A stretch of DNA of 60,202 bases from a virus. The notes under the pieces are model-generated. The model did no database searches and was not told the DNA's origin. It saw nothing but the letters and a program-made list of their open reading frames with translations. The stretch is from IMG/VR virus record IMGVR_UViG_3300004369_000751, positions 1 through 60,202 of that record, one strand, 5' to 3'. Both the position numbers and the translations under genes were made by a program. Shown piece after piece: positions 4,757 through 60,202 of the stretch (its first letter is position 1; every line of letters begins with the position of its first letter).

Positions 4757-5141
4757 GTATGTAGTTTTTGTATACCTTTTCTGTATATCCTACTTTCTTT
4801 GCAAACATCGGGTTGTTCTTTTGGTCAACCGATATATCTTCTCCATTCAGCTTGCTATACAAGCTGCTAATCATTCTTGTTGCTTTTCTTGAGAGCTTGT
4901 AGATTCTTCCTCTTTCTTTTGGGTAGTCTCGTAGTACTTCAATCCACCCATCTCGAAGAAGGTTGTCAAATCTTTTTTTGTCCCACGACAGCAATTTTTC
5001 GTACTCTTGCACATCTGAGCGCATGAAGTACTTTTCCGAGGACAAGAACAGCAGGTACTCGATGTTTTGTTCTGACAATCCATATTTCTTCTTTATGAAA
5101 AACTTAATAGGTCTCCAATACTTAAGGTAATCGTATTTCAT
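4701..5141 (-). CDS. winged-helix DNA-binding protein
   Basis: This 146-aa protein has helix-helix-wing spacing like MarR/PadR-type regulators. It has a helical N-terminus, a helix-turn-helix around residues 25-65, and a turn with a Lys-Glu-Arg-Gly-Arg wing near residue 80, followed by basic C-terminal helices. I infer a transcription regulator; this is the only clear regulator candidate in the genome. It is the first gene of the two-gene antisense island. Its -7 box faces and nearly overlaps the rightward promoter of the basic-protein cluster, so its expression and that of the cluster may exclude each other. Confidence 0.65.
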   Translation of the reverse strand: MKYDYLKYWRPIKFFIKKKYGLSEQNIEYLLFLSSEKYFMRSDVQEYEKLLSWDKKRFDNLLRDGWIEVLRDYPKERGRIYKLSRKATRMISSLYSKLNGEDISVDQKNNPMFAKKVGYTEKVYKNYIHELNRKRKEKKFGANDGL

Positions 5142-5154
5142 TTGATTTTTTTTT

Positions 5155-5162
5155 TACCTTTG
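5155..5162 (+). promoter_or_regulatory. -7 box for the basic-protein cluster (TACCTTTG)
   Basis: TACCTTTG is a perfect TAnnTTTG, 18 bases before the ATG at 5181. There is no TTG at 19-21 bp. It lies 5 bp from the oppositely directed -7 box at 5168-5175. Confidence 0.7.
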
Positions 5163-5167
5163 TAGTG

Positions 5168-5390: not shown

Positions 5391-5401
5391 CAACTACAGA
5401 T

Positions 5402-5707
5402 ATGCCAGCAATGCGTAAACCAATGACAAAAGGCCCAATCAAGGGTGCTAAGAAAGCCACAACCGCCAAAGGAAACGGAGATGGCAAAATGAAGCCAATG
5501 AAAGAAAAAGCCGGCGGAGTTACCCGGACTATTTCAAATCGTGGTCAAGATACTTCATACACATACTCTCCGAGAGAGGTTGGTGGAATGTTAAGCAAAA
5601 AAGCGGCTGAGGCTCGTTTTAATAAGGCTTATGATGCTCGTTCTACTGCCTATAAAAAAAGCGTGGAAAGCGGAGCAAGGGCTGCAATGGCTAAAAAGAA
5701 AAAGTAA
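5402..5707 (+). CDS. small Lys/Gly-rich basic protein
   Basis: This 101-aa protein has an N-terminal half of Lys, Gly, Met, Pro and Thr and a C-terminal half of Ala/Lys/Arg helices ending in five lysines. No known domain. Its stop overlaps the ATG of the next gene by one base, so the two are translationally coupled. The GNGDGK segment resembles the PGDGK segment near the N-terminus of the two following proteins, which hints at a distant family link. Confidence 0.7.
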   Translation: MPAMRKPMTKGPIKGAKKATTAKGNGDGKMKPMKEKAGGVTRTISNRGQDTSYTYSPREVGGMLSKKAAEARFNKAYDARSTAYKKSVESGARAAMAKKKK

Positions 5708-46681: not shown

Positions 46682-48145
46682 TTAAAGTGTTAAATGTTTC
46701 TTAAAATGAGAAATTGTGTAGTCTTTTTTCTTGCTTACAGCCTTGTAGATTTCATCTTCAATGCCATCCTCAGAAAAAATCCAATAGATGTCGCTCTCCA
46801 ATCTGTCCTTCGTTGTCATCCGGTCTCGGCTCTGCCAATAACTCGTGGCACTGAAGTCAATGTTGAAGTAAACTAAAGCGTCAGCCTGCCTCAAGGATAT
46901 GCCCTCCCTTCCACTTACAATCTGAAGGGCTATCGACTTTTGCGTCTCTTCGAAGAGACTCAAATCTGTGGTAAGCTCATCGCCAAACACCTGAGTCAAA
47001 GCACTCAGCTCCTCCTTGAACTTGTAGAAGATGCCAATCTTCTTGCCGGCAAAGTGATTCTTTATGAACTCCGCTTTGCTTAGGTCAAAGGTCATAGACT
47101 TTCCGCTCTCAAACTTTACCGTTCCGGAGTACATCTGATGTAACTTTTGCATCAACTTCACCGGTGTGTCAGCCAAGATTACCTCATCCTTACCTTGAAG
47201 AACCAATTCCTTCTTAAGCCTTTCAATCATAGCATAAGTCGAGTCCTTCATCCTAACCCTCAGAATGTGCTCCTTTGTTTGCACAACAAAGCCTGCTTGC
47301 TTCTGACTATAGTTGATGGTGTATGGCTCCATTGCCTTTATGATTTCCTCCTTTCCTCGGCTGTAGTCTTTTATCATCACAGAGTTTATCATCTTGGTCT
47401 TCACATCAATGTACGCGTCAGCAAAACGATAGAATGATTTGAAAGAAGAGAATGGGTTGCCGGGGATTCCGTACACCTGATGGTACATCTGAGAGTACGA
47501 CTCCGGTGTTGGTGTTCCGCTCAGGAGAATCACCCGAGGTCTGTGCTTTGCAATCAAATCGCGCACGTCCTTAGCTCTGTTGCTTGGCTTGGGGAAAGCA
47601 CCAAGGCTGTGTGCCTCATCGCAGATGATGACATCCCAACTCTTCTGTTCAACCTTGTGAAGACTCTCGTAGTTGATGGTATCCATGTGGAACTCAGGAG
47701 ACAGCGTAGCGTAGTCACTCTCAATGCTGCCGATTGCTTTCTTCTTGGTTATAAACAGAACAGACTTAGCACCAATCTTCCGGCAGATGCCGAGACTTGT
47801 GAGAGTCTTGCCGGTTCTCACCTCCATGGCCAAGTACAAGAAGTCATGCTCAAAGAGAATCTGAGCACCCTTCTCAATGATGCTTAGCTGATAGTCTCTG
47901 TACTCAAATGAATTCTGTTTCATCTCGGGTAGGTTTTGATAGTGTTCAATGCTTGCACGTATTGATTCAATTGTATGTGTAGGCACGTCATGCTTGAGAG
48001 CCACGACCTCAACCATCTTCCGGCCTTGCTTGACCTTCTTTGTTTTGGTTTTGGTCGCGACACCAAGCAGTAGCCGGAGCAGCTCCACCATCATCATGTT
48101 GCTGTATCCGGGCCTCCTCTCTATTATCTTAATCTCGTTCATCAC
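46682..48145 (-). CDS. SNF2-like superfamily 2 helicase
   Basis: This 487-aa ATP-dependent DNA translocase has Walker A RTGKT (110-114), DEAH (176-179), the LSGTP motif III (208-212) and a late SATSYWQSRDR motif VI. Phage SNF2-like helicases help replication or recombination. It is coupled to the primase-helicase by an ATGA overlap. A 20-bp palindromic element is inserted in frame between the helicase motifs of lobe 2 (46942-46961), where it encodes SLFEETQ. Confidence 0.9.
   Translation of the reverse strand: MMNEIKIIERRPGYSNMMMVELLRLLLGVATKTKTKKVKQGRKMVEVVALKHDVPTHTIESIRASIEHYQNLPEMKQNSFEYRDYQLSIIEKGAQILFEHDFLYLAMEVRTGKTLTSLGICRKIGAKSVLFITKKKAIGSIESDYATLSPEFHMDTINYESLHKVEQKSWDVIICDEAHSLGAFPKPSNRAKDVRDLIAKHRPRVILLSGTPTPESYSQMYHQVYGIPGNPFSSFKSFYRFADAYIDVKTKMINSVMIKDYSRGKEEIIKAMEPYTINYSQKQAGFVVQTKEHILRVRMKDSTYAMIERLKKELVLQGKDEVILADTPVKLMQKLHQMYSGTVKFESGKSMTFDLSKAEFIKNHFAGKKIGIFYKFKEELSALTQVFGDELTTDLSLFEETQKSIALQIVSGREGISLRQADALVYFNIDFSATSYWQSRDRMTTKDRLESDIYWIFSEDGIEDEIYKAVSKKKDYTISHFKKHLTL
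46942..46961. repeat. palindromic element inside the helicase gene
   Basis: GCGTCTCTTCGAAGAGACTC; on the minus strand it reads in frame as SLFEETQ within the second helicase lobe. Confidence 0.88.
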
Positions 48146-50742: not shown

Positions 50743-51033
50743 TTAGAACGGAAGTCCATCGCCATCCACATCAGGAGCATGAGCAGGTTCAGGTGCTGAC
50801 CGAGTCGGTGCTTGGTCTCCACCCTTCGGTTGCCACGTGTCGAGTTCGATGTAGTAGTTACCGCTTCGCGCTTGCTTAATCTGAAGGTTCACCCATCCCT
50901 TCCGCTCGTTGTCCTTCATGAACTGAATGGCCTCATCGACCTTCATGGATAGGCTTCCAACAACGAAGTTGGGTGCTGACTCTTGACGCTTAAATGAAAA
51001 GCCGTCTGCGAAAACTTTTTCTTGTTCGCTCAT
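50743..51033 (-). CDS. SSB-like protein with acidic DGDGLPF tail
   Basis: The start at 51033 is chosen because the upstream part of the frame (to 51108) has no counterpart in usual proteins. The 96-aa product has a compact domain (residues ~20-70, with VNLQIKQARSGNYYIELDTW) and a Pro/Ala linker. It ends with DVDGDGLPF, the acidic tail through which SSB proteins recruit partners. It sits with annealing and exonuclease genes, so single-strand binding is likely. The fold is inferred rather than matched. Confidence 0.65.
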   Translation of the reverse strand: MSEQEKVFADGFSFKRQESAPNFVVGSLSMKVDEAIQFMKDNERKGWVNLQIKQARSGNYYIELDTWQPKGGDQAPTRSAPEPAHAPDVDGDGLPF

Positions 51034-51123
51034 ATAAAATGGTATTTGTTTTCCCCTCAGATAAATTTGTGATTGTTCTCCTCTCTTGAGCCCAAGGGGT
51101 TCGCCCAATTGATTTGATTTTTT

Positions 51124-54188: not shown

Positions 54189-54398
54189 TGTAAAGTTTTG
54201 TGGAATTAAGCATTATAATGTGATTTGGCCGTTCTTTTCTTGCGTTAACAAGCATAAAGGCAGACAAATCATAGTATGGTGTGGTTTAAAAGTCTAAAGA
54301 ACGTCTAAAGAACGTCTAAACGCTTTGCATTTTAGACATTTATTGTGCCATATAAGGGGTGAAACATTGGGAGTTTATCCCTTTAATGACAAGTTAGT
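54189..54398. other. intergenic region with 11-bp tandem repeats
   Basis: A gene-free 210-bp stretch between the tRNA-Leu-like gene and the zincin gene. It holds GTCTAAAGAAC repeated at 54292-54302 and 54303-54313, a partial third copy, and a GTCTAAA...TTTAGAC hairpin at 54314-54337. No promoter is recognised. Confidence 0.6.
54292..54323. repeat. 11-bp tandem repeat (GTCTAAAGAAC)
   Basis: Two exact copies plus a third partial one in tandem. The same GTCTAAA core also appears in the odd anticodon arm of the neighbouring tRNA-like gene. Confidence 0.8.
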
Positions 54399-54507
54399 AG
54401 TCAGGACAGGACTCGAACCTGTATTGCACGTCTGCATCTGTGGAGCTCTATCTCAAGCGTGTCTATTTAGACCTAACACAAGCGTCTACCAATTTCGCCA
54501 CCTGACT
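54399..54507 (-). tRNA. tRNA-Leu-like gene with unusual anticodon arm
   Basis: The minus strand forms a perfect 7-bp acceptor stem (AGTCAGG with CCTGACT), a D arm like class II tRNA-Leu (GGCGAAATTGGTAGACGC), and a T arm ACAGG-TTCGAGT-CCTGT. The region where the anticodon arm should be is abnormal: TGTGT and ACACG enclose a 13-base loop containing a GTCTAAATAGAC hairpin. A long variable region with TGCA-GACG-TGCA follows. The total of 109 bases is too long. It may have an insertion or be a non-decoding tRNA-like RNA. No CCA is encoded. Confidence 0.65.
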
Positions 54508-56010: not shown

Positions 56011-56501
56011 GATTCTTTATTGAAGTGATTGTTAAAGATTTCTTCTGCAATGTAGTTCGCTGAACTAAGATGTCCGCGGAGAATCCGAATCGAACTGACT
56101 TCTCTATTACCAACAATCTTGCCTGCTGTGTCTGTGAATATCATGCGATTCGCAAAATGTAGGATTCGCAAGGTCTCTTCGTTGTGGTCTGTGCAGTCCC
56201 ATCTGCCATTGTCTATGTAGTAGATAGGCTCAGAAACGTCTCCGTAGACCTCAACAAATGCTCCATCCAAGCTACATTCCAATGGCTCATATCCTCCGAA
56301 GGAGTAGTCTCTGCCATCAAAGACAAACTTGAATCCGCGACCTACGATACCCATGGCCGGCAAAGCACCCTCGTGAGACCATTCATCACCATCGATGTTT
56401 ACTTTGAAAATCGGAAGGATGTCCCGACCATCTTCTGCATCAGCCAACACTAAGGATTGGTAGTTAGACTCGATGCTGTGTTCAATTACAAGTTTTCTCA
56501 T
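56007..56501 (-). CDS. unknown 164-aa protein behind a tRNA-like leader
   Basis: An acidic protein with strand-rich N-terminal and middle parts (GRGFKFVFDGRDYSFGGYEP) and a helical C-terminus. It is the first gene of the leftward 56501-54548 operon. A tRNA-like element lies in its leader, ending 23 bases before the start codon, with a promoter just upstream of that element. Confidence 0.6.
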   Translation of the reverse strand: MRKLVIEHSIESNYQSLVLADAEDGRDILPIFKVNIDGDEWSHEGALPAMGIVGRGFKFVFDGRDYSFGGYEPLECSLDGAFVEVYGDVSEPIYYIDNGRWDCTDHNEETLRILHFANRMIFTDTAGKIVGNREVSSIRILRGHLSSANYIAEEIFNNHFNKES

Positions 56502-56524
56502 TTTGATTTAAATTTAAAGGTTAG

Positions 56525-56606
56525 TGTGGCTTTCGGACTCGAACCGAAGGAAGAGTCTCTTCGAAGAGACGCAAATTGCTGCTAATCATTCCGACCATCA
56601 ACCACT
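56525..56606 (-). ncRNA. tRNA-like leader element 1
   Basis: On the minus strand the T arm TTCGG-TTCGAGT-CCGAA is perfect. The 3' AGCCACA can pair with the 5' AGTGGTT at six of seven positions. The body contains the palindromic hairpin GCGTCTCTTCGAAGAGACTC where a long variable arm would lie. No convincing D or anticodon arm is found. A TTG-N20-AACCTTTG promoter predicts a start exactly at its 5' end. It is followed by CTAAC, as in the other two elements. Confidence 0.6.
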
Positions 56607-56609
56607 ACA

Positions 56610-56640
56610 CAAAGGTTGGGAATGTATGGGACATTAGCAA
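56610..56640 (-). promoter_or_regulatory. promoter of tRNA-like element 1
   Basis: TTG (plus 56638-56640), a 20-bp spacer and AACCTTTG (plus 56610-56617, one mismatch to TAnnTTTG). The predicted start lies about 4 bases on, at 56606. Confidence 0.6.
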
Positions 56641-56675
56641 TAGCCAAATGCCCCATAATTCTTAAGAATTGTTAA

Positions 56676-56900
56676 TTAAATTGAAATGGTTTCGATGTCT
56701 TGAATAAACGTGATGTGAGCATTTGGGAAACGATTTTCTAATGCATAGACCAAAGAATCATTGTCATACTCTTCGTAGCCATCTCGCTCTTGGTTGACCA
56801 ATGGAGTGATTACTTCGACAATGTCCTGTTCGCTCAGGTCTGTCAGCAGATAGAAATCTTCTTCTTCAAATGCTGTTGTGTTGATTCTGAAAATGTTCAT
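56676..56900 (-). CDS. unknown 74-aa acidic protein
   Basis: The start at 56900 is preferred because it follows the same leader (a TTAACACCTTAGAAACC-type sequence) as the gene upstream; an ATG at 56966 would overlap that gene by 53 bases. The product is acidic, with a DLSEQDIVEVITPLV helix and two strands. No family is recognised. Confidence 0.6.
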   Translation of the reverse strand: MNIFRINTTAFEEEDFYLLTDLSEQDIVEVITPLVNQERDGYEEYDNDSLVYALENRFPNAHITFIQDIETISI

Positions 56901-56913
56901 GGTTTCTAAGGTG

Positions 56914-57174
56914 TTAAAGGTTATTGTAATTGATTGATTTTTTAATTCTGTAGTAGTCATAAACATCTAATTCGTAGATGTCTCCCAAGTCTTCTTCGCT
57001 GACATACATTCTCTCGACCTGCTCACCTGAATGAAAGTGCAGGTAAAGGTCATACAATGTAGGGTAGATGATGGCTTCTCCATCTTTGATTAAGACGTGA
57101 ATGGCTGCTCCATTGTTATCGTGCCTGACTTCGTATGTCCTGTCGGCTTTGTCAAAATGCTCGTTATGAATCAT
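56914..57174 (-). CDS. unknown 86-aa protein
   Basis: A beta-rich acidic protein with RTYEVRHDNNGAAIHVLIKD at the start and an aromatic, Asp-rich end. It precedes the 56900 gene by 13 bases and shares its leader type. No family is recognised. Confidence 0.6.
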   Translation of the reverse strand: MIHNEHFDKADRTYEVRHDNNGAAIHVLIKDGEAIIYPTLYDLYLHFHSGEQVERMYVSEEDLGDIYELDVYDYYRIKKSINYNNL

Positions 57175-57195
57175 GGTTTCTAAGGTATTAAGTGA

Positions 57196-57699
57196 TTACT
57201 CTTTTTCGTAGATAGCTTCGCCATTGGAGAATCTTCCGACACAACGCAAAGGTGTGCATCCGATTGTCCTGAATTGTGACTCAATTGATTGCGACAAATT
57301 GTAAAAATCCAAATGCATCTTCCTGTTAATCATGTCAGCCAATAGCTGCATAACATCAGGATGAGTCTCATCATTTACTGCATAGGAATTGCGCTCCATC
57401 ATGTACAAAATCATGTCTGTACTCGGCAATTCATCGGCATCAATTTCGCCAAAGCCATCGATGTAAAAGTTTAGTCTCCAATCCAAATTTCCTCCTCCAT
57501 AATATCCATGTCGCAAGACTGCCTTTACTTCAACAGAGAAATCAATTGATTCTCCATTTTCGGGATTGTAAACTACATTGTGCGAAACGTGACTCCAATC
57601 ATCAAAATCAAGTCCATCGTTCCGCAGGTCTTCGATTTGGTCATTGTCAAGAGCAAAGATTCTGCTCGCATTTTTGTTTTCAAAATTAGCTGTTGCCAT
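57196..57699 (-). CDS. unknown 167-aa protein
   Basis: An acidic protein with an Asp-rich N-terminal region, a Gly/Tyr-rich strand hairpin (LRHGYYGGGNLDWRLNFYID) and a helical C-terminal half. Its leader carries tandem TTAATCAC words ending 9 bases before the ATG. No domain is recognised. Confidence 0.6.
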   Translation of the reverse strand: MATANFENKNASRIFALDNDQIEDLRNDGLDFDDWSHVSHNVVYNPENGESIDFSVEVKAVLRHGYYGGGNLDWRLNFYIDGFGEIDADELPSTDMILYMMERNSYAVNDETHPDVMQLLADMINRKMHLDFYNLSQSIESQFRTIGCTPLRCVGRFSNGEAIYEKE

Positions 57700-57728
57700 A
57701 ATTGATAAGTGATTAAGTGATTAAGTGA

Positions 57729-58034
57729 TTATTTGCGATTGTCTTCAATTTCTCCATTGGAAGTCTCATAGTAGAGTACGTTACCATTGGCATCTTGCTG
57801 ATACTTTCCACAATAGCCATTGGAATCTTCAAAGCAGAGGGCTTTGCCATTGGCATCGTACTGCCGCTTTATCCAAAAGCCATTGGAAGTCTCAAAGTAG
57901 ATTACGTTACCATTGGCATCGTATTCGTACTTCTCCCAATAGCCATCGGAATTCTCAGAGTAGATTACTTTGCCATTGGAATCATAAAGCCGAAAGGGGA
58001 ATTCTTTTGCATTTAATTGATTTGCAATTGTCAT
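57729..58034 (-). CDS. YD-like repeat protein, copy 1
   Basis: This 101-aa protein consists almost entirely of ~20-residue repeats with the pattern YDANGNVIYFETSNGFWIK. It resembles Rhs/YD repeats and a repeat known in small phage proteins. It is a close paralogue of the protein at 58563-58931: same start (MTIANQLNAKEFPFRLYD vs MTIAEQLNATEFPFRLYD) and same end (DNRK). Repeat number differs. A tRNA-like element lies 35 bases upstream of its start. Function unknown; repeat proteins of this kind often bind partners. Confidence 0.8.
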   Translation of the reverse strand: MTIANQLNAKEFPFRLYDSNGKVIYSENSDGYWEKYEYDANGNVIYFETSNGFWIKRQYDANGKALCFEDSNGYCGKYQQDANGNVLYYETSNGEIEDNRK

Positions 58035-58069
58035 GATTGATAAGTGATTAAGTGATTAAAAAAAGTTAG

Positions 58070-58135
58070 CTGTGGCATCGGAATCGAACCGACCTTGCGT
58101 CTCTTCGAAGAGACTCTCAATCACCATGGCCACAA
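58070..58135 (-). ncRNA. tRNA-like leader element 2
   Basis: This 66-base element has a complete 7-bp acceptor-like stem (TTGTGGC with GCCACAG, one T-G pair), a T arm GTCGG-TTCGATT-CCGAT, and the palindromic hairpin GAGTCTCTTCGAAGAGACGC in the place of the anticodon arm. There is no D arm. CTAAC and a seven-T run follow, then the start of the YD-like gene 35 bases on. The length and layout match element 3. Confidence 0.6.
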
Positions 58136-58149
58136 GACCAATGAGCATC

Positions 58150-58542
58150 TTACTCCTGAGAAGGGAATTTGAAATACTGAAGGTCAAAAGCATCTACGTC
58201 TCCATACCAATCATGTCTGTAGATAAGATGTCCTTCCCATGACAAACCTACCTGATAAGCAAATGATATGGCATCCTGAGTAGTGTATGCAATCAGGGAA
58301 GACATGAATCTTCTGACATTCAAGTTAAAGCCAATGGTATCAGGTGAACAATCACTGATGAAGCTAACCACAAAGGTCTCTTCGGGTTTGCCATCCCATT
58401 CACCTAAATGAGTCTCTACAATGGCGTCCCATAGGCTAAAATGTATGCCTGCCAATTCCATTACTCTGCGGAATTCAGCATCCGAAAATGCTCCAAAGGG
58501 ATTGTTCTCCTTCCCGATGTTTAAAATTACTTGATTGTTCAT
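58150..58542 (-). CDS. unknown 130-aa protein
   Basis: A soluble alpha/beta protein with Trp-rich parts (HFSLWDAIVETHLGEWDGKP) and a C-terminal HDWYGDVDAFDLQYFKFP. No domain is recognised. It lies between the two YD-repeat paralogues, each preceded by a tRNA-like element, so the whole gene-plus-element block looks duplicated around it. Confidence 0.6.
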   Translation of the reverse strand: MNNQVILNIGKENNPFGAFSDAEFRRVMELAGIHFSLWDAIVETHLGEWDGKPEETFVVSFISDCSPDTIGFNLNVRRFMSSLIAYTTQDAISFAYQVGLSWEGHLIYRHDWYGDVDAFDLQYFKFPSQE

Positions 58543-58562
58543 AACTGATAGGTATTAAGTGA

Positions 58563-58931
58563 TTATTTGCGATTGTCTGTGATGTGGCCATTGGAATTCT
58601 CAGAGTAGATTACTTTGCCATTGGCATCGCGCTGATACTTCGCCCAATAGCTATTGGAATCTTCAAAGGAGAGGGCTTTGCCATTGGCATCGTACTGCCT
58701 CTTTATCCAAAAGCCCTTGGAATCTTCGTAGTAGATTACTTTACCATTGGCATCGTATTGATACTTTCCCCAATAGCCATCGGAATCTTCAGAGGAGAGT
58801 ACTTTGCCATTGGAATCGTACTCTAACTTCCTCCAATAGCCATCGGAATCTTCATAGTAGATTTCGTTCCCATTGGCATCATAAAGCCGAAAGGGGAATT
58901 CTGTTGCATTTAATTGTTCTGCGATTGTCAT
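58563..58931 (-). CDS. YD-like repeat protein, copy 2
   Basis: This 122-aa paralogue of the protein at 57729-58034 has one more ~20-residue repeat (five or so in total). Consensus units such as YDANGKVIYYEDSDGYWGK have recurrent Asn-Gly turns and Tyr/Trp. DNA repeats (CCATTGGCATCGTA-type words) underlie the protein repeats, so unit gain and loss by slippage is likely. A tRNA-like element lies 35 bases upstream of its start. Confidence 0.8.
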   Translation of the reverse strand: MTIAEQLNATEFPFRLYDANGNEIYYEDSDGYWRKLEYDSNGKVLSSEDSDGYWGKYQYDANGKVIYYEDSKGFWIKRQYDANGKALSFEDSNSYWAKYQRDANGKVIYSENSNGHITDNRK

Positions 58932-58966
58932 GATTGATAAGTGATTAAAGGGTTAAAAAAAGTTAG

Positions 58967-59031
58967 CAGCAGCATCGGACTCGAACCGATTTATCGTCTC
59001 TTCGAAGAGACTCTAAGAACCTTCACTGCTT
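58967..59031 (-). ncRNA. tRNA-like leader element 3
   Basis: This 65-base element has an acceptor-like stem AAGCAGT with GCTGCTG (six of seven pairs), a T arm ATCGG-TTCGAGT-CCGAT and the palindromic hairpin in the anticodon position. There is no D arm. CTAAC and a T run follow, then the start of the YD-repeat gene. It is an evident relative of element 2. Confidence 0.6.
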
Positions 59032-59051
59032 CCATCTCTCGGAAGAGACTC
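59032..59051. repeat. degenerate palindromic element
   Basis: CCATCTCTCGGAAGAGACTC, a decayed copy of the 20-bp palindrome. It abuts the stop of the small membrane-protein gene and element 3. Confidence 0.55.
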
Positions 59052-59196
59052 AGGCAAACAGATGCGTCATAATGACAGCATAGGCAAAGCCAATCAGGAT
59101 GATGCCCATTCCGATAACATAGGATTGGATTGTCGCTCTGCGATTCTCTGCGCGGAGTCTATCTTGCTCTCGCTCAAGGTCAAATGAATTGTTCAT
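59050..59196 (-). CDS. small membrane protein
   Basis: The start at 59196 gives 48 aa: a charged N-terminal helix (FDLEREQDRLRAENRRA) and one transmembrane helix (residues ~26-46). The longer frame to 59340 crosses a promoter and is not used. It is driven by the promoter at 59230-59260. Function unknown; host takeover or superinfection roles are possible for such proteins. Confidence 0.65.
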   Translation of the reverse strand: MNNSFDLEREQDRLRAENRRATIQSYVIGMGIILIGFAYAVIMTHLFA

Positions 59197-59229
59197 GGTT
59201 AAATGGATTAAATGGTTAAAAGGTATACA

Positions 59230-59260
59230 CAAAATTACTTCAGAACTTCGACATATGCAA
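59230..59260 (-). promoter_or_regulatory. leftward promoter with extended -33 element
   Basis: TTGCATATGTCGAAGTT (plus 59244-59260) contains the -33 TTG. A 20-bp spacer leads to a perfect -7 box TAATTTTG (plus CAAAATTA, 59230-59237). The first 17 bp are identical to the promoter at 53316-53346. Confidence 0.78.
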
Positions 59261-59303
59261 TAGGCAAAGATGCCGATTTTGTTAAGAATTGTTAAAGGTA
59301 GCA

Positions 59304-59323
59304 GAGTCTCCGCGAAGAGACTC
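59304..59323. repeat. palindromic element copy
   Basis: GAGTCTCCGCGAAGAGACTC between the junction-spanning gene and the promoter at 59230-59260. The centre is changed but the outer stem is kept. It may terminate the junction gene. Confidence 0.75.
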
Positions 59324-59343
59324 CGCATACCTTCACACATTCA

Positions 59344-60202
59344 TTACTTGGCAGCTACATAGAAGTGAGCAGGAGACTCGGCCTGATAGCTAAACCCTAC
59401 CTTCGCAATTAGCTTGCTCACAGATTCGCTCAGCTCTCCGCCATCCCCAAACACTACCTGACCTTTGTGCTCCACGTACTGCAAGTTATCGGTGTACAGC
59501 ACGTTTCCGCGTCCGACCTTGGTCTCTATTCCAATGGCATTCAAGACCTTCTGTAGCTCCTTGGCAGATACCTTGGCCTTGGTCGGTGTTTTGGCCTGCT
59601 CAATTTCCTTAATCCATTCCGCCTTGGCCTTAGCCTTAGCCTTAGCATCAGCAATGGACTTGGCCTGCTCCTTGGCCTGCTCCTTGGCATCAGCATCCGC
59701 CTTTGCCTTGGCATTCCGCTCATCCACAATCGGCAGCAGTGCAGTCAATTGGTCAATGACTTGCTGAAGGTCAGCGGATGTGAAATCTCCCCTAAATGCG
59801 ACCTCACCATTGGAATTTAATTGAACCTTTACAGATGCATCGGATAAATGCCAAGTTAGACTGCCGACATTGGTAGGTTTACCTTCACCTTCACCTTCAC
59901 CTTCACCTTCACCTTCACCTTCACCTTCACCTTCACCTTCTTCCGTCTCTTCGAGGAGACTCCTTTTGCTGAATTCCAATAGGTTGGTCACTGACCTTTC
60001 CACAGCAATTCCGCTCTCCTCTTCCCGAAGGTTTGCCCAATCGTTAAACTGCTCTAAGGTCTCACCTTCCAAAGATGCTGCCTGAATTAACTTGTAAGCC
60101 CATGACCGACTGAACCCATACAAAGGGAAAAGGTCGGCCTTTTTCAGACCTTCGGACTTAAGGGCAGCTTTCCCTTCCTTGGTGTCTGCCCAATTAGTAC
60201 CT
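59344..60202 (-). CDS. C-terminal part of junction-spanning HTH-like protein
   Basis: This is the main part of the ~346-aa protein that starts at 281 (or 218) on the other side of the junction. After the HTH-like N-terminal part come a Ser/Leu/Glu region with the in-frame palindrome peptide SLLEETE, a Glu-Gly dipeptide run coded by GGTGAA-type hexamers, and a beta-rich segment. A long Ala/Lys/Asp/Glu helix and a final domain (GRGNVLYTDNLQYVEHKGQ onward) follow. I infer a DNA-binding protein with a flexible hinge. Function unknown. Confidence 0.65.
   Translation of the reverse strand, partial: GTNWADTKEGKAALKSEGLKKADLFPLYGFSRSWAYKLIQAASLEGETLEQFNDWANLREEESGIAVERSVTNLLEFSKRSLLEETEEGEGEGEGEGEGEGEGEGEGKPTNVGSLTWHLSDASVKVQLNSNGEVAFRGDFTSADLQQVIDQLTALLPIVDERNAKAKADADAKEQAKEQAKSIADAKAKAKAKAEWIKEIEQAKTPTKAKVSAKELQKVLNAIGIETKVGRGNVLYTDNLQYVEHKGQVVFGDGGELSESVSKLIAKVGFSYQAESPAHFYVAAK
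59879..59941. repeat. hexamer tandem repeat (ACCTTC)n
   Basis: About ten perfect copies of a 6-bp unit code for Gly-Glu dipeptides in the junction-spanning protein. Such a run is prone to length change by slippage without frameshift. Confidence 0.9.
59943..59962. repeat. palindromic element inside the junction gene
   Basis: CCGTCTCTTCGAGGAGACTC, in frame as SLLEET, next to the Glu-Gly run. Third coding copy with this reading frame. Confidence 0.82.
60104..60202. repeat. terminal direct repeat, copy 2
   Basis: Exact repeat of bases 1-99; see copy 1. Confidence 0.9.

Follow-up and report, generated by a model that had tools for sequence, protein, structure and literature searches.

Why should a phage place part of a tRNA in front of its protein-coding genes? 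The question is raised by three minus-strand elements, here called e1, e2 and e3, in IMG/VR virus record IMGVR_UViG_3300004369_000751, which was analyzed over its whole length of 60,202 bases (the window). In a preliminary description the elements were proposed to recruit tRNA-processing enzymes that cut the mRNA, to act as translation or termination switches, or to be tRNAs disrupted by a palindrome. From the comparative evidence given below, we consider e1–e3 to be probably intercistronic tRNA mimics, at which host RNase P, and perhaps RNase Z, would punctuate the mRNA in place of self-cleavage. The comparisons draw on a close relative of the window phage, L002 (primase 97% identical), and on a set of 81 primase-anchored loci (the window and 80 loci found via the primase; 1.43 Mb).

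Read in a 6-bp register, e1–e3 share one architecture: an acceptor stem, a linker bearing GGU, a hairpin with the core GTCTCTTCGAAGAGAC, a 5-bp T stem closing a 7-nt T loop (UUCGAGU or UUCGAUU), and a 3′ end of R73-C-U-A in tRNA numbering. In e3, an A at N-1 precedes the 6-bp acceptor AGCAGU/GCUGCU, the T arm is AUCGG-UUCGAGU-CCGAU and N73 is G. The e2 acceptor is UGUGGC/GCCACA, with a seventh pair, U-G, on the outside; its linker begins CAUGGU, its T arm is GUCGG-UUCGAUU-CCGAU and N73 is again G. In e1, N-1 is A, the acceptor is GUGGUU/AGCCAC, the linker begins GAUGGU, the T arm is UUCGG-UUCGAGU-CCGAA and N73 is A. The sequence thus bears out what had been reported, i.e., three elements with a perfect T arm, an acceptor-like stem, a palindromic hairpin and a trailing CTAAC, two of them 65–66 bases long (e3 and e2), with start codons 23–35 bases farther on and a T7 run after e2 and e3 only, none following e1 (Table 1). 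Two of the elements had been said to lack a D arm. This holds for e2 and e3; the longer e1 has a possible D arm that is not kept in L002, so that effectively all three are without one.

These are not tRNA genes in the usual sense. Neither an anticodon arm nor a supported D arm is present in e1–e3. They have a T arm and C74, but the acceptor, 7 bp long in a tRNA gene, has 6 bp in e1 and e3 and 6 bp plus the U-G pair in e2. ARAGORN finds no functional tRNA, with a complete cloverleaf and an anticodon arm with a 7-nt loop, in the window. The Rfam tRNA model misses e1–e3, on which no Rfam family exceeds its gathering threshold. No transfer-messenger RNA (tmRNA), i.e., a tRNA-like domain with a tag reading frame, was detected in the window by ARAGORN or Rfam. 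All of e1–e3 are also found in L002, where the T stem of e3 carries a compensatory change (ATCGG/CCGAT to ATTGG/CCAAT). The paralogous elements e2 and e3 have nearly identical leaders downstream, and their acceptors differ at three pairs by two-sided changes. RNA folding yields the tRNA-like shape exactly for e3 of the window and for e2 and e3 of L002.

The relatives provide the statistical case. T-arm motifs, sought by stem and loop only with no demand on acceptor pairing, occur 60 times on the gene strand and never on the opposite strand. When an acceptor is added to the T arm there are 54 motifs, compared with 2, 1, and 0 in Markov shuffles, and in 38/60 elements the acceptor is paired at 7/7 positions. 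An acceptor criterion of 6/7 pairs over 90 positions is weak alone (36% by chance; 2.8% for 7/7), and we relied instead on the T-arm strand test, a fixed-linker test and a covariation test. The elements take two forms. A compact form of about 42 nt consists of the acceptor, a linker and the T arm, with stacked stems of 7+5 or 6+5 bp and a UUCRANY loop; in a larger form a D-arm sequence of Leu type is present and the middle varies strongly. The linker of the compact form contains an invariant GG, in keeping with a docking on the T loop in the manner of tRNA G18-G19.

Covariation was measured in 20 compact elements with a linker of 10–12 nt. Standard pairs fill 94.6% of their pair cells, as against 56% in shuffles and 42–54% in slid controls, and two-sided changes are seen in 11/12 pairs. 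The covariation score is 1.005, whereas shuffles give 0.204 and slid controls at most 0.28. Acceptor sequences are almost wholly different between elements, yet pairing is kept. The preliminary description had let the case for the elements turn on compensatory changes in relatives; they are there, and the outcome favors the elements. Because pairing helped to choose the 20 compact elements, the T-arm strand test is the cleaner statistic of the two.

The elements lie between genes, from stop to start codon, usually 0–40 nt past the stop. A start codon within 60 nt of an element is mostly 17–44 nt downstream. A T run follows 6/60 elements only, and in e2 and e3 it is set apart from the element by the CTAAC. 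A terminator scan of positions 56300–59400 found sites no more numerous than in shuffles. The termination switch proposed earlier is thus not supported for the family, and an intrinsic terminator at e1–e3, where terminator-like sites are at chance level, was rejected.

The strongest indication of function comes from what stands at the same junctions in other phages. In the relatives whose contexts were inspected, hammerhead ribozyme cores lie directly downstream of the palindrome. Rfam Hammerhead_3 scores them at 35–45 bits (E-values 1e−6 to 1e−3), slightly under its gathering score of 48.5. A strict scan for the core recovered 24 in sense orientation, none antisense and none in shuffles; a wider set holds 127 unique hammerheads, and they typically lie 18–31 nt before the ATG. 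No hammerhead core (CUGANGA...GAAA, with three stems) was found in the window or L002. Clustering of flanking genes gave 22 pairs of a tRNA-like element and a hammerhead in which both neighboring genes are homologous, at two junctions. The first (S1), between a gene of ~200 aa and one of ~300 aa, has a tRNA-like element in L013 and L094 and a hammerhead in L079, L096, L110, L120, and L143. The second (S2), between genes of ~375 and ~90 aa, has a tRNA-like element in L011 and L096 (also in L015 and L016, as judged by the downstream gene or by inspection) and a hammerhead in L038, L060, L064, L065, L105, and L122. Both types are present in L096, the hammerhead at S1 and the tRNA-like element at S2. 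A third exchange is seen by the downstream gene only: homologs of the open reading frame (ORF) at 56676–56966 are preceded by a tRNA-like element in L020, L120, and L166 and by a hammerhead in at least nine others.

At the swapped junctions the layout is shared: a stop codon, a phage-specific hairpin, the element or the hammerhead, ~20–40 nt, and the ATG. The S2 junction of L011 reads tag-tgtcttcaaagacaca-[GGATGAATGGTTGCAAGGGGGGTTCGACTCCCCCCTCATCC]-gctaacccttaaaccaatataaa-atg, and that of L060, tag-...gtgtctttaaagacactaccct-[hammerhead]-aaacaatcaaaatcataatcac-atg, is superimposable on it. A compact element of L011 occupies positions 5401–5441, its hammerhead counterpart in L060 positions 5117–5167. 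The elements thus have the features of mRNA punctuation signals, being intergenic, in sense orientation and interchangeable with another cleavage element. That a ribozyme and a tRNA mimic are tolerated in exchange suggests conservation of the cut itself. Of the functions proposed earlier, the recruitment of tRNA-processing enzymes to cut the mRNA is therefore the best supported by the sequences, as hammerheads replace the elements at orthologous junctions.

We envisage the following course of events. In the early-operon transcript each element would fold as the upper half of a tRNA, with the acceptor stacked on the T arm and the GG-bearing linker free to dock, like G18-G19 of a tRNA, on the T loop. 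This elbow would be recognized by host RNase P, with cleavage at the acceptor's 5′ side, and a second host enzyme, RNase Z, may cleave behind N73. Gene-length mRNAs would thus arise from the polycistronic transcript: one piece would end shortly after the stop codon of the upstream gene (in most relatives, after the hairpin that follows this codon), and the next would start at the minihelix or past it, ~20–40 nt ahead of its own start codon. The elements would then do the job that hammerheads do at the same junctions of related phages, presumably with a gain in mRNA stability or translation. The end chemistry would differ: a hammerhead leaves a 5′-OH on the downstream piece, RNase P a 5′-phosphate. 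The features of a tRNA-type RNase P substrate (an acceptor/T stem of ~12 bp, a T loop and the GG) are present in the compact relatives, and e1–e3 carry linkers with GGU.

The 3′ trailer bears on this proposal from both directions. Its pattern N73-C-(A/T)-A is general in the relatives (C74 in 45/54, A76 in 43/54, C75 in 3/54). A more distant relative of the window phage sits in a Cytophagales metagenome-assembled genome (MAG), whose tRNA genes do not encode CCA and have C74 in 11/12 cases; the trailers match these genes, and the mimicry would thus reach to host-type tRNA 3′ flanks. Several points weigh against cleavage by RNase P or against the structural model as drawn. With C75 in so few elements the CCA is not encoded and no R73-C74-C75 end is formed, which weakens the case for bacterial RNase P; a phage T4 pre-tRNA with UAA at the place of CCA is described as being cut less well (PMC11143913). 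Either RNase P would make weaker CCA-dependent contacts here, or these contacts would come only after 3′ maturation. The folds of e1 and e2 in the window compete with alternatives, and their z-scores against shuffles are about −1.1. The variant with the hairpin within the linker, otherwise like the compact form, was seen only in the window phage and L002. The compact covariance model scores e1–e3 poorly (best E-values 1.8 for e3 and 5.2 for e1, over the T arm only), failing to recover them whole, as expected because of the inserted hairpin. Lastly, a fourth element of the window, described below, is without its 5′ half in L002, where the T arm and the 3′ acceptor strand remain.

The palindrome that fills the linker of e1–e3 has a history of its own. 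It had been described as 20 bp long; its core is the 16 bp given above, mostly extended to GAGTCTCTTCGAAGAGACTC. It occurs at 12 sites in the window (at most 3 mismatches; 0.25 expected by chance), mostly outside the tRNA-like elements. All 12 are homologously placed in L002, with flanks 77–98% identical. Between the two phages the outer five bases of each arm are nearly always kept, and the central six are altered in concert at 11/12 sites, in mixed orientation; at the imperfect copy upstream of e3 (Table 1), L002 reads GTCTCCGACAAGAGAC. Across the relatives the version is phage-specific (GTGTCTTYRAAGACAC in many) and dispersed within and between genes. In 72/101 cases beside a hammerhead it is lengthened by four or more further pairs specific to the gene, which indicates that it acts as an RNA hairpin there. 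The palindrome is a separate, dispersed hairpin evolving in concert across each genome. The idea that the tRNA mimic includes it as an intrinsic component was rejected, since relatives have it 5′ of the element, in front of hammerheads as well, and inside ORFs. One such copy (46944–46959), in a helicase ORF (46682–48145), occupies the same codons in many relatives, each phage having its own version; in L002 this alters an encoded residue from E to S.

The fourth tRNA-like element belongs to the larger, Leu-type form (Table 1). It has a full acceptor (AGTCAGG/CCTGACT), a Leu-type D-arm sequence, a T arm and the trailer A-CUAAC. Its anticodon region is abnormal, with extra bases and a repeated TAGAC(AC)GCTTG, and ARAGORN does not call the element. 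Its relatives have like arms and highly variable middles. In L033 four Leu-type elements lie within ~700 nt (458–1196), sharing acceptor and T arm and differing in their middles. Elements of this type are frequently found just upstream of the leader of an SSB-like gene (protein end DGLPF; ORF at about 50743–51034 on the minus strand). This leader is pseudoknot-like (e.g., GCCTCAG...CTGAGGC), lies ~20 nt before the start codon and is kept in many relatives, most clearly in L052, L065, L066, and L070; by analogy with T4 gene 32 it is perhaps autoregulatory.

The main alternative to cleavage is that the minihelix, formed close to the 5′ end of the mRNA or remaining there once the RNA is cut, is a leader element, protecting the message or tuning ribosome access, and not an enzyme substrate. 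The narrow distance of ~17–44 nt between element and start codon would suit this role, and e1 and the Leu-type element follow a Bacteroidota-type promoter sequence (identified by eye), so that a transcript may start with them. A structured leader would likewise stand at the head of the RNA downstream of a hammerhead cut. However, e2, e3 and most relatives lie 0–40 nt after an upstream stop codon, a full T loop, GG linker and N73-C74 exceed the needs of a stabilizing stem, and the swaps with self-cleaving ribozymes point to cutting. We therefore regard a stabilizing or translational leader as improbable. The tight mimicry of the tRNA elbow, N73 and C74, together with several copies per genome and the four-element array of L033, might instead suggest a tRNA-like small RNA that is released and acts in trans, e.g., as a decoy for tRNA-cleaving defense enzymes or for the CCA-adding enzyme. 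Such a product seems rather remote, since the acceptor sequences bear no relation to one another, the elements lack an anticodon loop that could serve as a mimic, and the placement is bound to gene junctions and common to ribozymes.

The remaining proposals fare worse. That the elements are remnants of tRNA genes broken by a mobile palindrome, as had been suggested for e1–e3, would fit the dispersal of the palindrome and the tRNA-Leu-like D-arm sequence that the Leu-type element and relatives of its type retain. It is contradicted by the strong two-sided covariation and the sense-only placement, and the compact relatives are 42-nt minihelices with the palindrome outside and no room for an anticodon arm, which makes a remnant origin very unlikely. 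A tRNA gene or pseudogene was likewise rejected on the negative ARAGORN and Rfam results for e1–e3 and the covariation. An attP integration remnant was discarded because both acceptor strands are there and the copies are many and dispersed. Least credible is that elements and hairpins mark recombination junctions as short homologies for the exchange of gene cassettes: e2 and e3 do precede paralogous ORFs with nearly identical leaders, and a different gene follows e2 in L002, but acceptor arms that differ between copies share little homology, DNA homology would not lead one to expect selection for pairing and for one strand only, and the proposal gives no account of the ribozyme swaps.

Similar elements were also sought beyond this group of phages. 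A scan of IMG/VR with a pattern made up of ATGGT, the spacing, the T-loop consensus and C-N-A only returned at least 120 stretches. Among the matches listed, 78 are unique with a good T stem, and in 66 of these the acceptor run reaches 5 bp or more (7% in random sequence). No same-strand ORF of 120 aa or longer contains any of the 66; antisense ORFs contain five. Most of the 66 come after a stop codon and have a start codon within ~55 nt downstream. Within the same list, the 52 matches with a downstream ORF represent 43 protein clusters, locus GC ranges from 31 to 59%, and no match overlaps an ARAGORN tRNA. At 18 sampled loci the Rfam families above threshold (tRNA, permuted tmRNA, RAGATH-1 hammerhead) are at other positions, and Rfam tmRNA models give only weak T-arm matches to the sampled compact elements. 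A pattern scan for the exact arrangement of the window yielded no matches in IMG/VR, and one match was found with a GTCTC-type hairpin 5–35 nt from a T arm. In Elemovirus isolate NC_055853 the sole match is an annotated tRNA-Met, and this isolate does not show the system. The tRNA-like elements are a large class, one not found in Rfam or in the open-access papers searched. There is perhaps an even chance that they form a virome-wide, undescribed class of anticodon-less mini-tRNAs, the enzyme-recruiting counterpart of self-cleaving ribozymes, with autocatalytic and RNase P/Z-dependent cut sites interchanged by phages at the same gene boundaries and a 3′ hairpin peculiar to each phage coupled to them, the whole serving as a general system of mRNA maturation. 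We also observed a twister-P1 ribozyme, a RAGATH-1 hammerhead and a compact tRNA-like element on one strand (minus) within ~1 kb of an unrelated phage contig (L207), and a hammerhead with a tRNA-like element on one strand in two further phages.

The window is a phage genome of Bacteroidota type. It has a 99-bp direct terminal repeat at its ends, which indicates that the genome is complete or near-complete, or circularly permuted. Its terminase, portal and virion proteins have PHROGs matches; judged by the primase, the isolates closest to it are phages of Flavobacterium and other Bacteroidota. The two ORFs behind e2 and e3 are paralogs with weak RHS/MORN-like matches; both are absent from these positions in L002, and they appear to be recently duplicated or exchanged cassettes. 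A tandem repeat of the hexanucleotide GGTGAA lies at about 59870–59940 on the minus strand, within the ORF at 59344–60123. Features are collected in Table 1.

Table 1. Positions of the tRNA-like elements, palindromic hairpins and neighboring reading frames in the window.
Feature	Position	Strand	Basis or remark
e1, tRNA-like, 82 nt	56525..56606	-	sequence; kept in L002, hairpin center inverted
e2, tRNA-like, 66 nt	58070..58135	-	sequence; L002 counterpart folds to this shape
e3, tRNA-like, 65 nt	58967..59031	-	sequence, minimum free energy fold, L002 conservation
Fourth tRNA-like element, Leu-type, 110 nt	54398..54507	-	Rfam tRNA 37.7 bits
Palindrome core inside e1	56555..56570	-	
Palindrome core inside e2	58099..58114	-	
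Palindrome core GTCTCTTCGAAGAGAC inside e3	58996..59011	-	
Second, imperfect hairpin copy	59034..59049	-	3 mismatches; between TGA of upstream ORF and e3
Twelve GTCTC-N6-GAGAC hairpins	6734, 20990, 37227, 46944, 51126, 54917, 56555, 58099, 58996, 59034, 59306, 59945		
CTAAC trailer of e1	56520..56524	-	
CTAAC trailer of e2	58065..58069	-	then T7
CTAAC trailer of e3	58962..58966	-	C74-U75-A76 in tRNA numbering, then T7
ORF after e1, 164 aa	56007..56501	-	no known family; 91% identical in L002; ATG 23 nt past e1
ORF after e2, 101 aa	57729..58034	-	paralog of 58563..58931 ORF; ATG 35 nt past e2
ORF after e3, 122 aa	58563..58931	-	RHS/MORN-like repeats; ATG 35 nt past e3

Parallels to the proposed system exist. 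In mitochondrial transcripts, protein genes are separated by tRNAs, in some cases lacking a D arm, that direct the cuts of RNase P and RNase Z. Those are functional tRNAs, whereas e1–e3 and their compact relatives are 42–82 nt long and have no anticodon arm. The tRNA-like domain of tmRNA likewise combines an acceptor with a T arm; its D loop has no stem, and an anticodon arm is lacking. Unlike tmRNA, the elements have no tag-coding part and no fixed acceptor identity. Clustered hammerheads are known to flank genes in phages and prophages, and the idea that they cut long transcripts has been put forward (Perreault et al., 2011; PMC3088659). In haloviruses HF1/HF2 a hammerhead lies 13 nt upstream of a start codon and the 5′ end of the mRNA has been mapped at the cut (PMC3088659). 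Those RNAs cleave themselves; the elements described here are without a ribozyme core and mimic tRNA, so that an enzyme would have to cut, and the accessible part of PMC3088659 reports no tRNA-like replacement of hammerheads.

RNase P is known to have substrates other than tRNA, among them T4 gene 32 mRNA, phage M3 RNA, C4 antisense RNA and the his and other operon mRNAs (PMC11143913). As proposed for our elements, these cuts fall in mRNAs and intercistronic regions, phage RNAs included; the cases given in the portion of PMC11143913 available are substrates described one by one, and a conserved class of covarying elements that recurs at gene junctions is not among them. Theta ribozymes, which are hepatitis delta virus-like, adjoin phage tRNAs, and their proposed role is to remove the 3′ trailer from genuine (suppressor) tRNAs (PMC10879173). 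There, in phages of Bacteroidota and Bacillota, tRNA-type RNA and ribozymes are combined in transcript processing as well, whereas here a tRNA mimic stands in for the ribozyme between protein genes. In the open-access papers searched, we found neither a covarying tRNA mimic at the gene junctions of phages described nor an exchange of such a mimic with ribozymes.

Phage hammerheads have been known for more than a decade, and the reason for their flanking phage genes had stayed open. That a tRNA mimic replaces them suggests that the cut between genes is what is selected, not the chemistry of the ribozyme, and this can be tested in laboratory phages and in vitro. The elements would add an RNA class that present tRNA finders and Rfam do not report, and the compact form is easily searched for in any phage genome. 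If e1–e3 and their relatives are cut as proposed, they would constitute a tRNA-punctuation system in DNA phages, made of minimal tRNA elbows, and would provide natural substrates for learning the minimum of tRNA structure that RNase P and RNase Z require.

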